Shown: one piece after another, positions 7,842 to 43,894 of the stretch
Layout: the number at the start of each line of letters is the position of its first letter
How positions within the stretch are numbered: the first letter of the stretch is position 1
Source: an uncultured Fodinibius sp.
GTDB lineage: Bacteria; Bacteroidota; Rhodothermia; Balneolales; Balneolaceae
Assembly (NCBI GenBank): GCA_913057775.1
Contig: CAJXOG010000001.1
Coordinates: forward strand, 434,001-498,000
Length of the DNA stretch: 64,000 nt
Direction of reading: 5' to 3'
Notes under the pieces: generated by a model
What the model saw: the letters and a program-made list of their open reading frames with translations, nothing else
Database searches by the model: none
Told to the model about the DNA's origin: nothing
Translations under genes and position numbers: made by a program

Positions 7842-8477
7842 ATGTCTGATTTCAAGAATGTAACGCTAATAAAACATCCCGTAGTAAACAGAGATTTAAC
7901 GATACTGCGGGATGTAAATACTAACATCTCTGAATTCAGGGCAGCTATTAAGCGTATAGCTATGATTCTGGCTTATCACGCGCTAAAGGAACTGCCCCAA
8001 ACTACCTTTGAGGTCGAAACACCGATCCAAAAAACAACCGGATACGATATTGATCAGGGGGTGATGGTGGTTCCGATATTACGTGCCGGTCTCAGCCTTT
8101 CTGACGCCCTCCTTCAATTTATTCCAGATGCCCGCGTTGGCCATCTGGGTATGGAACGAGATGAGAAAACACATCAGCCGGAAGACTATTATTCCAACAT
8201 TCCAGATGGCGTTGAAGATGACATGGTGCTTGTGGTAGATCCCATGTTGGCAACCGGGGGCAGTGCCCACGATGCCCTCTCCTTTTTAGAAGATAAGGGA
8301 GCACAACATTTACGGTTTGTGTCATTAATTTGTGCGCCTGAGGGATTGAAAAAACTCGAAGAAGAACATCCCAATGTACATACCATAACCGCAGCTATCG
8401 ATGATCATTTAAACGATGATGCCTTTATCGTACCCGGATTAGGTGATGCAGGTGACCGATATTTTGGAACAACATAA
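7842..8477 (+). CDS. upp: Uracil phosphoribosyltransferase
   Basis: Pyrimidine salvage enzyme converting uracil plus PRPP to UMP. 211 residues, full length. The PRPP-binding loop VVDPMLATGGSAHDAL is at about 129-144, the substrate-proximal GVMVVPILRAGL segment at about 71-82, and the C-terminal uracil-binding PGLGDAGDRYFGT motif is intact. It sits 11 bases after the symporter gene, and its 3' end overlaps the predicted lptC start by about 30 bases. Confidence 0.96.
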   Translation: MSDFKNVTLIKHPVVNRDLTILRDVNTNISEFRAAIKRIAMILAYHALKELPQTTFEVETPIQKTTGYDIDQGVMVVPILRAGLSLSDALLQFIPDARVGHLGMERDEKTHQPEDYYSNIPDGVEDDMVLVVDPMLATGGSAHDALSFLEDKGAQHLRFVSLICAPEGLKKLEEEHPNVHTITAAIDDHLNDDAFIVPGLGDAGDRYFGTT

Positions 8478-36991: not shown

Positions 36992-39433
36992 ATGAACAAA
37001 TTTTTACGCATTGCCCTTTTTGTACTCATCTTGATTGTCGGAATCGGTAGCCTGGCCGTCTACTGGACGTTCTATCGTCCGCTTCCCGATTATCAATCCA
37101 CCCAAACGCACGATACCATTCAGCAACAGATTGATATTCACTGGGATACTCATGGTGTTCCGCATATTTATGCTGATAATAAGCATGATTTATATTACGC
37201 TCTCGGATACGCCCACGCCCAGGATCGTCTCTGGCAGATGACCTTGAGCCAGATGGCAGCCGAAGGTCGATTTGCCGAATTTCTGGGAAAAGACCTGCTT
37301 CCCTACGATAAACTACAACGTACCCTTGGCTTTTGGGATATAGCGCAACAGATTGCCCCTACTCTCTCCGACTCAAGCCAAAATTTACTTCGGGCTTATT
37401 CAGCCGGCGTGAACTCCTATGTCAAAAAGAATCCCAAAAGTCTGCCTATACAGTTTACGCTAGCCGATATGGAACCCATTCCATGGACACCAACGCATTC
37501 TATCGCGCTGTCACGGATGATGGCCTGGGAGCTAAACTTGGCCTGGAAATCGGAATTAAACTACGCATATTTTGCTAATATTCTTTCAGAGGATAAATTT
37601 TCTCAACTGTTGCCCGATAACAGGTTTCTTTCATCAAATTCAAAAACCGATTCCAGCTGGGCACAAACGCTGATGCCGCTGGTCGAAAAAAATGAAACTC
37701 TTAATAAAATCATGGGCCAGCAGGGCTCGCACGTGGGCAGCAACGCATGGGCGGTCAATGCTGAAAAATCATCCTCCGGCGCACCCCTGTTGGCAGGTGA
37801 CCCCCATCTCGGGTTAAATATGCCCGGTAAATGGTACGAAGCGCATTTTAACGTCAATGGAAGAAATCTTTCAGGCGCTACCCTTGCCGGTGCGCCCATC
37901 GTTATTTTAGGTCAAAATGATCATCTTGCCTGGTCACTGACCAACATCATGCTCGACGACACCGATTTTTTTGTGGAAGCGGTAAACCCCGAAAATTCCA
38001 ACGAATATGTCATTGATTCGCTGGCAAATGAAGCGATTTATGATGAGTTCAAAATCCAAAAAGAGGTTATAAAGATTAAAGGAGCAGATGATACGCTCTT
38101 CACCCGTAAAGTTACCAATCACGGACCTGTGATCTCTGATGTATATCCCGAGCAGGAGTACACCAAAAACCGCGTTATATCTATGCAGTGGACCGGCTAC
38201 GAGGTAACCAATGAGATAGAAGCACTGTTAACCATGAACTGGGCACAATCTTTTGAGGAGTTTCAAAAAGGAGCCTATAACTTTAAGGTGCCGGGCCAAA
38301 ATTTTATCTATGCAGATAAAGCAGGCAACATCGCCCAACTGTCGATGGCAAATATTCCCATTCGGGATGAGAATCCGGTTTTACTGCGTCAAGGCTGGAA
38401 TAATGAACACGACTGGCAGGGTTATGTGCCTAATGAGCAGCTGCCAGCGATCATTAATCCCGAGCGCGGATGGGTGGCCAATGCCAACACTGCTCCTGTC
38501 GGCAACAATTATCCCTACTATATTTCGGTGTATTGGGAACCGGGTTCCCGCATCAACCGAATCGAACAATACTTGACGGAAAATAAACAGCTGTCCCCAC
38601 AACTGTTCCAGCAGATGCAAAACGATACCTATTCCAAATTCTCGCGCGATCTTTCAAAGCTTATTCTTCCGGTATTAAAAAACAACGGTCAACAAAAGTT
38701 TGAGCCCGCCATTTCGTACCTGGAAAACTGGGATTTTAGTTATGGTAAGTCAGAAACGGCCGCCTCTATTATGGATGTCTTTTTACTTCATCTTGCAAAA
38801 AACACTTTTATTGATGAAATGGGAGAAACGGGTTATCAGAACTTTGTGCGATTCTCTTCGATGCCCATCCGCACGCTCAGCCGCTTTCTACGAAACGGGA
38901 GCACCTTTTTTGATGATATAAGTACCGAAGATACAACCGAAACCCGGAACGGCATGATCAGGAAAAGTATGAGAGAGACAATCAATTTTCTGCAGCAAAA
39001 CTATGGCGACGAGCCGTTTGAGTGGCGATGGGAGCAGTTACACACCATCACGTTTAAGCCTCAGCTATTTGGAGAAGCCGCAGAAGATCCCAACGCCCCA
39101 CAAGCATTAAAACTGATCGTCAATAACTTACTCAATAATGGTCCACACCCCGTAAGCGGACATGACATGAGCGTCAATAACGGAGAATACAGCTGGAATG
39201 ATCCATATGAAATGGTACTGGGACCTTCAATCCGACGTATTATTGATTTTTCTGATCTAAGCAAAACCTGGTCCATAAATCCCACCGGTCAATCAGGGAA
39301 TCCCCTTTCACAATATTATGGAGACCAAACCGAGAGCTGGCTCAACGGTCAATATAAATTCTTATACCAGGACAGTACTTTTTTTGATGAAAATCAGTTT
39401 AAGACTATGACCTTCATACCTGAGGACAAATGA
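36992..39433 (+). CDS. Penicillin acylase family Ntn-hydrolase (exported)
   Basis: 813 residues with an N-terminal membrane or signal segment (about 5-27). The A-subunit carries G-V-P-H-I-Y-A and Y-A-L-G-Y-A-H-A-Q-D-R-L-W-Q-M (about 55-90). The G-S-N-A-W-A-V motif at about 249-255 supplies the nucleophile, S250, exposed by autoproteolysis in this family. The L-L-A-G-D-P-H-L-G motif follows. Members cleave amide bonds of beta-lactams or acyl-homoserine lactones; either substrate class is possible here. Periplasmic. No SD. Confidence 0.9.
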   Translation: MNKFLRIALFVLILIVGIGSLAVYWTFYRPLPDYQSTQTHDTIQQQIDIHWDTHGVPHIYADNKHDLYYALGYAHAQDRLWQMTLSQMAAEGRFAEFLGKDLLPYDKLQRTLGFWDIAQQIAPTLSDSSQNLLRAYSAGVNSYVKKNPKSLPIQFTLADMEPIPWTPTHSIALSRMMAWELNLAWKSELNYAYFANILSEDKFSQLLPDNRFLSSNSKTDSSWAQTLMPLVEKNETLNKIMGQQGSHVGSNAWAVNAEKSSSGAPLLAGDPHLGLNMPGKWYEAHFNVNGRNLSGATLAGAPIVILGQNDHLAWSLTNIMLDDTDFFVEAVNPENSNEYVIDSLANEAIYDEFKIQKEVIKIKGADDTLFTRKVTNHGPVISDVYPEQEYTKNRVISMQWTGYEVTNEIEALLTMNWAQSFEEFQKGAYNFKVPGQNFIYADKAGNIAQLSMANIPIRDENPVLLRQGWNNEHDWQGYVPNEQLPAIINPERGWVANANTAPVGNNYPYYISVYWEPGSRINRIEQYLTENKQLSPQLFQQMQNDTYSKFSRDLSKLILPVLKNNGQQKFEPAISYLENWDFSYGKSETAASIMDVFLLHLAKNTFIDEMGETGYQNFVRFSSMPIRTLSRFLRNGSTFFDDISTEDTTETRNGMIRKSMRETINFLQQNYGDEPFEWRWEQLHTITFKPQLFGEAAEDPNAPQALKLIVNNLLNNGPHPVSGHDMSVNNGEYSWNDPYEMVLGPSIRRIIDFSDLSKTWSINPTGQSGNPLSQYYGDQTESWLNGQYKFLYQDSTFFDENQFKTMTFIPEDK

Positions 39434-39532: not shown

Positions 39533-42502
39533 ATGGCTAAACAATTGAAGATCTCTACTAAAAACATATTACTGCTGGTTATAAGCAGTACGGTTTTACT
39601 TTTCTCAACCCAATCATGCTCTGCATCCCAAAAAACGACTGCAACCTCACCGCCGGTTGGGAGTATTAAGCAAGAAAGTGTACTGAATAATATTACTAAA
39701 CACAGGCTGAATACAGAAGAAAGCCAAACGGCTGACCTGAATAAAAAGGTAGCGGATCCCATAACTGTTGATTCATTGCTTGCGGAGATGTCGCTTAAAG
39801 AAAAAATCGGGCAGCTGTTTTTTATTCGCACTTATGGAGATTATAAAAGCAACGACAGTCAGTCTTATCAACAATTGCTACGCCACATCCAAGAGTACAA
39901 AATTGGCGGACTCGTGTTCTTCAACGGCACCGTTTACGGACAGGCCGTTTTAACCAATAAACTCCAGCGCGCCTCAAAAATTCCGCTGTGGATCACCCAG
40001 GATATGGAATATGGCGCTGCCATGCGGATAGAAGGTGCAACGCGATTTGTACATGCCATGGGGGTAGCAGCAACCCAAAATCCCGACTATGCTTACTGGA
40101 TGGGGAAAATAACGGCACAAGAAGCTAAGGCACTTGGGGTAAACCAGATTTTTGCCCCAGTTATGGATGTAAATAACAATCCAATGAATCCGGTAATTAA
40201 TGTACGTTCATTTTCGAGCGATCCCGCTACCGTCTCGGAATATGGAAATAAATTTATCGAAGGCGTACAATCTGAAGAAGTGATCCCAACAGCTAAACAT
40301 TTCCCTGGTCACGGCGATACGGATATCGATTCTCATCTGTCATTACCTGTAATCAAGTACGATTATACCCGCCTTGATAGTCTCGAACTGGTGCCTTTTC
40401 GTTCGGCCATTGATAATGGAGTCAATAGTATAATGAGTGCCCATATCTCATTCCCAAAAATTAGTTCCGACTCTGCATTACCTGCTACAATGGACGCCAA
40501 CATACTAAATCGAATACTCAGAGATACCCTAAATTTTGAAGGAGTAGTTGTAAGTGATGGGTTGGATATGCGTGGGATCTCTTCCCATTTCTCCCCGGGC
40601 GAAGCCGTTGTGAAAGCCTTGAAAGCAGGCGTCGACCTCATGTTGCTGAGTCCAGACGAATTAACAGCTCTTCACGAAATTGAACAAGCTGTCAATTCGG
40701 GTAAAATCTCAGTAAAACGCATTGACAGTTCTGTTCGTAAGCTCTTGAAATGGAAAAAGCAGAAAGGACTCTTTGAAGACAGGGAAATAAATATTGATTC
40801 CTTAAGCGCTAATATTAACACTCGAAACAACCAGTTAATTGCTGAAGAAATCAGCAGAAAATCACTGACACTGCTTAAAAATAACGGTGATATTTTACCT
40901 ATCCGGGCATCGGAATATCCTAAAGTAATGGTTGTATCGGTATCTGATGGTAAGAGTGGATATACCGGCTCTTCTTTTGTCTCACAGCTCAGGGATTATC
41001 ATCCCGATGTTAGCAATTACCTTTTGGATCAACGTACAAGTAAAGAAGACAAGCAGGAGATGATCGAAGAAGCCCAAAAAGCAGACCTCATCATCATTGG
41101 CTCATTTATTTATGTCAAATCTGGGCAAAAAGTCCAGCTCAACAATGAGCAGCTGCCATTTCTAAAGAAATTAATTCGCAACGAACCCTCCGTTTTAGCC
41201 GCTTTTGGAAATCCTTATGTGGTTCAGGATTTGCCGAATACGGATGTACAGCTTTTGGCTTGGTCGGCCAATGGTAATCAAGTAAAAAGTGCGGTGCCCG
41301 CGCTGTTTGGCGGATCGGAAATTAGCGGGCGGCTCCCCATCAGCATTCCGGGCATGTATTCCATCAATCATGGATTATATTTGCCACAAACGGCTGTGCG
41401 TTACGACGAACCTGAAGTATCGGGTTTGTCACGTGATTCACTTCGCAATATCGATAACATCATGAACGATGCAATATTTGATTCCACCTTTCCCGGTGGG
41501 GTAGTCACCGTCGTTAAAGACGGCAACATTGCCTACCAAGAGGGATTTGGATACGAAACATACGAAAAGCTTAACCCGATAAAAGAAGATGCAGTTTATG
41601 ACTTGGCTTCACTCACAAAAGTAACAGCTACTACGGCTGCAGTGATGAAGCTGGTGGAAGAAGAAAAAATCAGTCTTAAAGATAAGATTGGGAAATATAT
41701 TCCTGAATTTTCTGAGGGTAAAAAAAAGAATATCACCATAGAAAATTTTCTGTTGCATAATTCGGGGCTCCCTCCTTTTAGGGTCTATGTTGATTCCCTG
41801 AAGTCAGAAAAAGAAATCATCGAGGCTATAAAGAATGAACCGTTGACTTATGAAACCGGAACCGATTATCGATACAGCGATCTCGGGTTTATACTGCTTG
41901 GAGAAATTATTGAACAAGTTACCGACCGGTCGCTTGATCAATATCTCAGAGAAACATTTTATTATCCTCTGGGTATGTCTTCCACTTTTTTCAATCCAAA
42001 AAAAATAGGTGAATACTTTATCGACCGTATCCCTCCTACCGAAATAGACACGGTTTTTCGGGATACTACGGTCCATGCAGAAGTGCATGATGAACGATCC
42101 TATTTCTTAAATGGTGTTGCCGGTCATGCAGGATTATTTTCGAGCGGCAGAGATCTGGCTATCTTTTGCCAGATGCTACTGAATGATGGATGGTATGCCG
42201 GTCGCCGCTATCTGGAACCCTCAACAATACAGAAGTTTACCAAGCAACAAGGCAAGCATAGCAACCGAGGCTACGGATTTGACCGCAAAAGCGGAGAAAA
42301 TAGTACGGCTGGATCTATGACCAGTAAAAAAACGTTTGGACACCTTGGTTTTACCGGTACCAGCTACTGGATTGATCCTGAGCGCGATCTGGCAATTATC
42401 ATTCTAACAAACCGAACGTATCCGTACCGATCATACGGTAAAAACATCAGCAACATACGAGCAGAAGTAGCGGATGCGGTTGTTTCATCAATTATTGAAT
42501 AA
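39533..42502 (+). CDS. Fusion: NagZ-like beta-N-acetylglucosaminidase (GH3) + serine beta-lactamase-like hydrolase
   Basis: 989 residues. Lipoprotein-like N-terminus ending S-T-Q-S-C. The GH3 N-domain (about 65-390) carries the NagZ-type K-H-F-P-G-H-G-D-T (about 255) and the nucleophile region V-S-D-G-L-D-M-R-G. A GH3 C-domain (about 430-610) follows. The C-terminal class C beta-lactamase-like domain (about 620-985) has S-L-T-K (S693, K696), Y-S-D in place of Y-A-N, and H-L-G. Probably a peptidoglycan-recycling enzyme pairing glucosaminidase with an esterase, amidase or carboxypeptidase. The TAA and the next ATG overlap by one base. Confidence 0.92.
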   Translation: MAKQLKISTKNILLLVISSTVLLFSTQSCSASQKTTATSPPVGSIKQESVLNNITKHRLNTEESQTADLNKKVADPITVDSLLAEMSLKEKIGQLFFIRTYGDYKSNDSQSYQQLLRHIQEYKIGGLVFFNGTVYGQAVLTNKLQRASKIPLWITQDMEYGAAMRIEGATRFVHAMGVAATQNPDYAYWMGKITAQEAKALGVNQIFAPVMDVNNNPMNPVINVRSFSSDPATVSEYGNKFIEGVQSEEVIPTAKHFPGHGDTDIDSHLSLPVIKYDYTRLDSLELVPFRSAIDNGVNSIMSAHISFPKISSDSALPATMDANILNRILRDTLNFEGVVVSDGLDMRGISSHFSPGEAVVKALKAGVDLMLLSPDELTALHEIEQAVNSGKISVKRIDSSVRKLLKWKKQKGLFEDREINIDSLSANINTRNNQLIAEEISRKSLTLLKNNGDILPIRASEYPKVMVVSVSDGKSGYTGSSFVSQLRDYHPDVSNYLLDQRTSKEDKQEMIEEAQKADLIIIGSFIYVKSGQKVQLNNEQLPFLKKLIRNEPSVLAAFGNPYVVQDLPNTDVQLLAWSANGNQVKSAVPALFGGSEISGRLPISIPGMYSINHGLYLPQTAVRYDEPEVSGLSRDSLRNIDNIMNDAIFDSTFPGGVVTVVKDGNIAYQEGFGYETYEKLNPIKEDAVYDLASLTKVTATTAAVMKLVEEEKISLKDKIGKYIPEFSEGKKKNITIENFLLHNSGLPPFRVYVDSLKSEKEIIEAIKNEPLTYETGTDYRYSDLGFILLGEIIEQVTDRSLDQYLRETFYYPLGMSSTFFNPKKIGEYFIDRIPPTEIDTVFRDTTVHAEVHDERSYFLNGVAGHAGLFSSGRDLAIFCQMLLNDGWYAGRRYLEPSTIQKFTKQQGKHSNRGYGFDRKSGENSTAGSMTSKKTFGHLGFTGTSYWIDPERDLAIIILTNRTYPYRSYGKNISNIRAEVADAVVSSIIE

Positions 42503-43209
42503 TGGATATTAACGACCTTTACGATCACAATTATGTACCCTATTCCAAAAAGGCTACGGCAGCTGTTGTTCGCAGTAAAAGCGGAAAATGGTTTCCCGGT
42601 GTACGTATCGAAAACATTTCTTATCCACTAAGTATCAGCGCCACCCAAAATGCCCTTTTTTACTGCCTTAGCGAGGGGCATAAACCCGTCGAACTTTTTA
42701 CGAATGAAATAAATATGTCAATGATACCAAGCTGGGAAAAAGAATTTGGATTTACGGCCAATTCCCTTGACAGCAATGAACTGCAAAATATCACCTTTGA
42801 AAACCCAGTTTTGGATTCTAATATCAACAAAATGAAACAGCTTAAACAACTGTTGGATATGGCTGTTGTCGGGGAATCGGATTTCCCGGTTTCTGCGATA
42901 GTAGAAACAGAACAGGGATATTTTACCGGGGTGAATATTGAATGTACTTCGTGGAATATGGGACTTTGTGCCGAACGTGTTGCCATTGCAAAAGCCCTTA
43001 CTTTTGGTAGTCAGAAATTAATTAGCCTTGAAATACACACCCGCAAAGGAGAATTCAGCAGTCCATGTGGTGCCTGTCGACAGGTTATAATTGAACACCT
43101 GCCAAAGAAACAAATTCACTTGCATCATGCTGATGATTCCGAATCTATTCACTTTAGCGAAGATCTCCTACCCCACAGTTTTAGTTCTTCATCACTTTCA
43201 AATAGATAA
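42502..43209 (+). CDS. Two-domain cytidine deaminase with dead N-terminal copy
   Basis: 235 residues, between the one-domain (about 130) and E. coli-type (about 290) enzymes. The N-terminal copy (about 8-70) keeps Y-V-P-Y-S and E-N-I-S-Y but reads I-S-A-T-Q-N where active enzymes have I-C-A-E-R, so zinc Cys and catalytic Glu are lost. It also has no P-C-G-A-C. The C-terminal copy (about 125-215) has C-A-E at 156-158 and P-C-G-A-C at 188-192, the full zinc site, but lacks the P-Y-S segment. The copies may complete one another. This is the reverse of E. coli Cdd, where the N-copy is catalytic. Translationally coupled to the upstream fusion gene. Confidence 0.8.
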   Translation: MDINDLYDHNYVPYSKKATAAVVRSKSGKWFPGVRIENISYPLSISATQNALFYCLSEGHKPVELFTNEINMSMIPSWEKEFGFTANSLDSNELQNITFENPVLDSNINKMKQLKQLLDMAVVGESDFPVSAIVETEQGYFTGVNIECTSWNMGLCAERVAIAKALTFGSQKLISLEIHTRKGEFSSPCGACRQVIIEHLPKKQIHLHHADDSESIHFSEDLLPHSFSSSSLSNR

Positions 43210-43225
43210 TTCACTCAATTTTTGT

Positions 43226-43894
43226 ATGAAATACATTGCAGCACTCGATTATGATCATTTAGATAACGGGGTATTTCTAACCAGTCTGGCCCGTTCACTT
43301 TCCCAACAACAAGGCAACTCTGACCTTCGTCCCATCATCATTCATTCCGACAGCGAATACACTGAACGCATTATCCAGACCGGTGTAATGCGGGATGAAG
43401 CTACCGTGCGCAGCATCAAAGATCTCAACAATCGGCTGGTTGCCCTTTTTGCCGATGAAGGCGTATCTGCAATAGGGCTTAATCCCTACCAGCGCAACCT
43501 GATGACCAAGCAAAACGGGACGTTAACCCTCGATCATTCATTTTTAGACACACTACCCAGCCAGTCGGTATTACTGCTCTCCACGCTGGTCCAAAACGCT
43601 GATGAAGATAAAATAGAACCATTACCTCTACCACGTCTTGCTACCTTTTTGTTCGAAGAGTTACAGGCTGATGAGCTATTTCTTTTTTCCAAATCCGACG
43701 AATCGGAAATATTTACGAACGACAAATCCGAAAGCGATCTAAGTTGGGATACGATGGATCCAAAATTCAGAGAAAATCAAATTCCGGATGAGTTCAACGA
43801 TTTTAGTCATCCCGTAAGACTTGCAACTGCCCGAGACTTTAATCAATTACCAGATTTAGGACAGACTACTGCCATCAATAGCAGCAAAAATTGA
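43226..43894 (+). CDS. Degenerate amino-acid-kinase-fold protein (tentative)
   Basis: 222 residues from ATG 43226; upstream in-frame codons overlap the deaminase gene and were rejected. Several stretches follow amino-acid-kinase (acetylglutamate-kinase-like) order: P-I-I-I-H-S-D-S-E-Y-T where kinases have P-V-L-V-H-G-G-G, then L-N-x-x-L-V-A-L-F-A-D-E-G-V-S-A-I-G-L, then R-L-A-T-F-L-F-E-E-L-Q-A-D-E-L-F-L-F-S-K where kinases have A-L-A-x-x-L-x-A-D-x-L-I-L-L-T-D. The N-terminal Lys-Gly-Gly loop and the glycines of H-G-G-G are missing, so catalysis is unlikely. A polar tail of about 60 residues follows. Lies 16 bases after the deaminase gene and is probably co-transcribed. Confidence 0.6.
   Translation: MKYIAALDYDHLDNGVFLTSLARSLSQQQGNSDLRPIIIHSDSEYTERIIQTGVMRDEATVRSIKDLNNRLVALFADEGVSAIGLNPYQRNLMTKQNGTLTLDHSFLDTLPSQSVLLLSTLVQNADEDKIEPLPLPRLATFLFEELQADELFLFSKSDESEIFTNDKSESDLSWDTMDPKFRENQIPDEFNDFSHPVRLATARDFNQLPDLGQTTAINSSKN

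Follow-up and report, generated by a model that had tools for sequence, protein, structure and literature searches.

The gene at 42502..43209 of the window, the 64,000-nucleotide stretch of DNA analysed here, encodes a two-domain cytidine deaminase (CDA) of 235 amino acids in which a catalytically dead half precedes a live one; its parts and its two adjoining genes are likewise on the + strand. Directly upstream is a gene encoding a fusion of a GH3 (NagZ-like) domain with a beta-lactamase/PBP4B-like domain (39533..42502), which overlaps the deaminase start codon, the A of the ATG doubling as the final base of the preceding stop codon (TAATG). The downstream gene (43226..43894; 222 amino acids) has weak similarity to amino-acid kinases (17.2 bits, below the cut-off of 24.9). 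A penicillin-amidase gene (680 bits) is also present, at 36992-39433.

To describe the residues of the two halves we use a 29-sequence alignment and a residue census that covers 73 two-domain proteins together with 83 single-domain CDAs and 8 D-CDAs. The D-CDAs (E. coli Cdd and the enzymes of Klebsiella, Vibrio, and Arabidopsis (CDA1); TIGR01355, PF08211) likewise have two domains per chain, one of them dead, whereas T-CDAs (B. subtilis, E. faecium, and human; TIGR01354) have a single domain of 130-140 amino acids.

The N-terminal half (residues ~1-95; 42502..42786) has a deaminase fold in the predicted model but lacks zinc-binding and catalytic residues. It retains P13-Y14-S15 (42538..42546), whose Tyr is equivalent to Y23 of the E. 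faecium enzyme and is the proposed loop-1 donor to a partner's active site. In R35-I-E-N-I-S-Y41 (42604..42624) the loop-2 donor Tyr is kept within E37-N38-I39-S40-Y41, while the ribose-binding Asn of the NxE motif is replaced by R35 (Arg in 70/73 proteins). At the position of the CAER motif is S46-A47-T48-Q49 (42637..42648), which has neither the zinc-ligating Cys nor the catalytic Glu; PCxxC, the pocket Phe, and the C-terminal LLPxxF...L tail are absent as well. P13, S15, G33, and E37 are invariant in the alignment.

The C-terminal half (residues ~106-235; 42817..43206) is an intact tetrameric-type CDA domain. Its S126-D-F128 segment (42877..42885) retains the pocket Phe (72 of 73 proteins), but the Tyr of the PYS motif is gone, G-E-S being found where P-Y-S is expected. 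N145-I-E147-C-T-S-W151 (42934..42954) contains the ribose-binding Asn and Glu and an invariant Trp (73/73), which occupies the Tyr position of ENxSY; loss of that Tyr from the live half is not strict, with Tyr still found in 7 of 53 Balneolales sequences. The first zinc Cys and the catalytic Glu are provided by C156-A-E158-R159 (42967..42978), the second and third zinc Cys by P188-C-G-A-C-R-Q194 (43063..43083), so that both motifs are complete. The tail, L222-L-P-H-S-F227...L232 (43165..43197; Phe in 71/73), is proposed to be donated to the other live half; its equivalents in the E. faecium enzyme, F127 and L132, reach across subunits. N145, E147, W151, C156, E158, and PCGxCRQ are invariant in the 29 sequences. 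Given the invariant residues in each half, the two-copy reading is not a product of chance. The preliminary description of this gene had read it in the same way, as two CDA-like copies in 235 residues, the first keeping P-Y-S and E-N-x-S-Y without zinc Cys or catalytic Glu, the second with a full zinc site but no P-Y-S, in the order opposite to that of E. coli-type CDA; each of these observations holds.

Searching with each half separately, as that description had suggested, gave CDA models for both: the C half matches TIGR01354 (87.6 bits; residues 111-231) and PF00383, and the N half matches TIGR01354 (43.9 bits) and PF08211 (27.6 bits), the family to which the second domain of the E. coli enzyme belongs. 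The whole protein passes the TIGR01354 cut-off (129.4 versus 113.65), a score reached only by summing the two matches, and falls well below that of the D-CDA model TIGR01355 (63.3 versus 275 bits). The summed weak matches hide the architecture, and database models would annotate the product as a plain cytidine deaminase.

The structure of the protein was predicted with AlphaFold2 from a 40-row alignment (pLDDT 95.4, pTM 0.93; a single-sequence prediction gave pLDDT 36). Both halves have deaminase secondary structure, which disposes of the possibility, proposed beforehand as a refutation, that the N-terminal part is not a deaminase fold. The elements of the N half are H3-8 E20-25 E30-34 H47-57 E62-67 H72-82 E85-88, with helix 72-82 occupying the position of PCxxC in the model. 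The C half most resembles the E. faecium and B. subtilis CDAs (Z 19). The whole model superposes on the D-CDAs of E. coli, Klebsiella, Vibrio, and Arabidopsis over 194-198 residues (Z 15-18, rmsd 3.2-3.8), for example on the Klebsiella enzyme (194 residues, Z 17.6, 3.2 A) and on E. coli 1ctt (197 residues, Z 17.2, 3.7 A), which points to an E. coli-like packing of the two halves; Foldseek whole-chain fits are looser (rmsd ~8, TM ~0.6). As the chains align in order, each half falls on its opposite in the E. coli enzyme, the dead N half covering the live domain and the live C half the dead one.

In tetrameric CDAs each active site is built by three subunits (PMC9897663); in the E. faecium enzyme it is ringed by Y23, A48, and F50 from one neighbour and by F127 and L132 from another (PMC11007441). 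In D-CDAs, the defective site of one monomer contributes to the working site of the other (PMC6686228). Single-domain CDAs carry own-site and donated residues in one chain, and the census shows that in the two-domain proteins these residues are partitioned. The dead half keeps the loop-1 Tyr (67/73, otherwise mostly Phe) and a loop-2 Tyr/Phe at position 41 (73/73) but lacks the pocket Phe, ribose Asn, zinc ligands, catalytic Glu, and tail. The live half has all of the latter (pocket Phe, Asn, Glu, zinc ligands, and tail Phe/Leu), and the donor residues are mostly gone from it. The loop-2 Ala is retained in the dead half of all 20 proteins from other orders of the class; in Balneolales it is usually Ile or Val, so this contact may differ there. 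The same partition is found in D-CDAs with the halves swapped. P-Y-S and E-N-x-S-Y of the N copy, previously described as substrate-side elements, are thus better seen as putative donors to a neighbour's site.

We therefore consider the protein to be a housekeeping cytidine/deoxycytidine deaminase of pyrimidine salvage, a two-domain mirror of the D-CDAs, with a probability of roughly 80%; in the likeliest case it does routine salvage work as an obligate homodimer in which the dead halves complete the sites. The homodimer, the donation in trans, and the substrate are what we infer from these comparisons. Two CDA copies would have been fused, the first losing its zinc-binding and catalytic residues but keeping the parts donated to neighbours, and the second retaining all catalysis. 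Two such chains would together supply four domains, arranged much as in a tetramer but with two functional sites. The C half that carries a site would provide its zinc, Glu158, Phe128, Asn145, and Glu147; a dead N half, probably on the partner chain, would contribute Tyr14 and Tyr41, and the second live C half Phe227/Leu232. With A and D as the live domains and B and C as the dead ones, A would receive the loops of C and the tail of D, and D the loops of B and the tail of A. Exchange of tails between live domains only would explain why the dead half has none. Placement of the loop donor in the other chain is suggested by analogy with D-CDAs and by the shared packing. The earlier proposal that the two halves form one complementary site is thus borne out as to their complementarity, but both the geometry of the tetramer and the example of the E. 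coli enzyme argue against completion of a site within the same chain.

That the N half has lost its zinc-binding and catalytic residues could also be taken to mean that the gene is decaying, or that the duplication is neutral and this half has no role. We regard this as very improbable, as all 74 sequences read from the class contain the N half, which, as noted above, has four invariant positions in the alignment.

It is somewhat less implausible, though still improbable, that the dead half serves in regulation or alters the choice of substrate, and that the enzyme acts on a modified nucleoside, a nucleotide, or nucleic acid, as in the two-domain APOBEC3 proteins. The order of a dead N and a live C domain recalls APOBEC3G (PMC10980023), and some tetrameric CDAs accept N4-substituted nucleosides (PMC9897663). 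However, the catalytic and ribose-binding residues are those of a standard CDA, the best structural matches are nucleoside CDAs, and the dead half retains the residues that would complete a partner's nucleoside site. The N domain of APOBEC3G, also non-catalytic, keeps its zinc and binds nucleic acid, whereas the dead half here has no zinc ligand of any kind and is of nucleoside-CDA sequence. ADAT2/ADAT3 tRNA deaminases similarly pair a live subunit with a pseudo-catalytic one, but as separate chains that act on tRNA and belong to another deaminase subfamily.

The genomic context likewise suits a salvage enzyme. The deaminase is the only CDA in this 3.1-Mb Balneolaceae genome; the other two PF00383 matches (frames of 165 and 374 amino acids) are, by size, probably TadA and RibD. 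The genome also encodes a pyrimidine phosphorylase, a uridine kinase (udk), and upp, so a normal salvage route exists. The upp gene (uracil phosphoribosyltransferase) is located in the same window, at 7860-8471 (contig 441860-442471). Ordinary catalytic and ribose-binding residues in the sole CDA of such a genome leave the non-standard substrate considered in the preliminary description unsupported, and we set it aside.

The live half is closest to T-CDAs in both sequence and structure, sharing their three-Cys zinc site, CAER, PCxxCRQ, NxE, and LLPxxF; the difference is that functions combined in a single T-CDA domain are here split over two fused ones. D-CDAs share the division of site residues between halves and, in the predicted model, the overall arrangement of those halves. 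They differ in having the live domain first and the dead one second, in their His-Cys-Cys zinc site (HAE...PCxxC; His in 8 of 8 D-CDA live halves versus three Cys in 73 of 73 proteins here), in having Tyr rather than Arg at the position of the lost ribose Asn, and in lacking the invariant Trp of the live half; the E. coli enzyme also has an N-terminal extension that the 235-residue protein does not.

These likenesses raise the question of common origin. In a tree built from all halves on 68 columns, the dead N halves join the dead C halves of D-CDAs (100/97; 99/97 in a second run), the live C halves join the live N halves of D-CDAs in a 93-row tree (100/97), and Gln is often found at the CAER Arg position in both kinds of dead half. 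It is therefore conceivable, but unlikely, that both architectures descend from an ancient split into live and dead CDA subunits that were joined in opposite orders, either from separate genes, with a heteromeric live and dead pair first, or through one fusion that was later permuted. If this were true, the live/dead heteromer would be older than both the E. coli/plant enzyme and the Balneolales-type enzyme. The dead-half grouping, however, is lost once 16 functional columns are masked, and the N and C halves of the non-Balneolales members then fall together (94/85). When live domains alone are compared over 134 columns, the live halves of the dead-first proteins cluster as a single clade (98/97) that lies within the single-domain CDAs and away from the D-CDAs. 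These halves have the T-CDA-like combination of three zinc Cys with Arg after the Glu rather than the His and Gln of D-CDAs; Arg in place of the D-CDA Tyr in the dead half likewise speaks against shared ancestry.

Constrained topologies gave mixed results: placing N and C halves in one clade was not rejected with 93 rows (p 0.51) but was with 52 (p 0.017), with the masked columns neither N and C halves together (p 0.19) nor dead halves together (p 0.14) was rejected, and the union of the live halves with those of D-CDAs was not rejected either (p 0.22). From the trees, the Cys3 versus His-Cys-Cys zinc sites, the Arg/Tyr difference, and the invariant Trp, we favour, without regarding it as proven, an independent origin with convergence; most likely the arrangement arose once, in the ancestor of the class, independently of D-CDAs.

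The dead-first, two-domain form is widespread in this class. It was found in all 54 Balneolales proteins read and in all 20 read from other orders of the class, some of them named Rhodothermales, whereas all 20 read from other Bacteroidota classes have a single domain. Named relatives are Fodinibius/Aliifodinibius, Rhodohalobacter, and other Balneolaceae. A scan of genome contigs with one pattern gave at least 16 two-domain proteins among the matches listed, from Balneolota, Rhodothermales, or unplaced Bacteroidetes MAGs, the other listed matches being single-domain. The form was not found in the phages or plasmids searched, nor among 8 relatives on viral contigs, judged by match coordinates only. 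In the copy of Bacteroidetes bacterium SW_4_67_19 (L135:359-1246) the live half is matched in two pieces, possibly reflecting an insertion or low-quality sequence, and some Balneolaceae copies (L050, L054, L055) have a linker between dead and live halves that is longer by ~50-60 residues. The searchable literature contains no prior description of a dead-first CDA that we could find, although a deaminase-fold survey could mention it.

The genes flanking the deaminase are conserved within Balneolales: a GH3 or GH3/beta-lactamase gene is directly upstream in 47 of 54 loci, its place being taken by a penicillin-amidase gene in the remaining 7, and 46 of 54 have the kinase-like gene downstream. None of the GH3, penicillin-amidase, or kinase-like neighbours was found in the ~1 kb flanks of the 20 other class members. 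A coupling to a peptidoglycan-type hydrolase had at first seemed unexpected; being common in Balneolales and not found in other orders, the link is probably inherited gene order within one bacterial order.

The architecture of this enzyme is unusual and its chemistry is likely ordinary; the observation itself is well supported. It amounts to a natural mirror experiment, in which a symmetric enzyme has apparently been split into live and donor halves in opposite orders, each time retaining and giving up the same residues, and this makes it testable whether the geometry of the tetramer dictates such divisions of labour. The combination of a three-Cys zinc site with a two-domain chain also helps to separate substrate preferences linked to the architecture from those linked to the zinc site.
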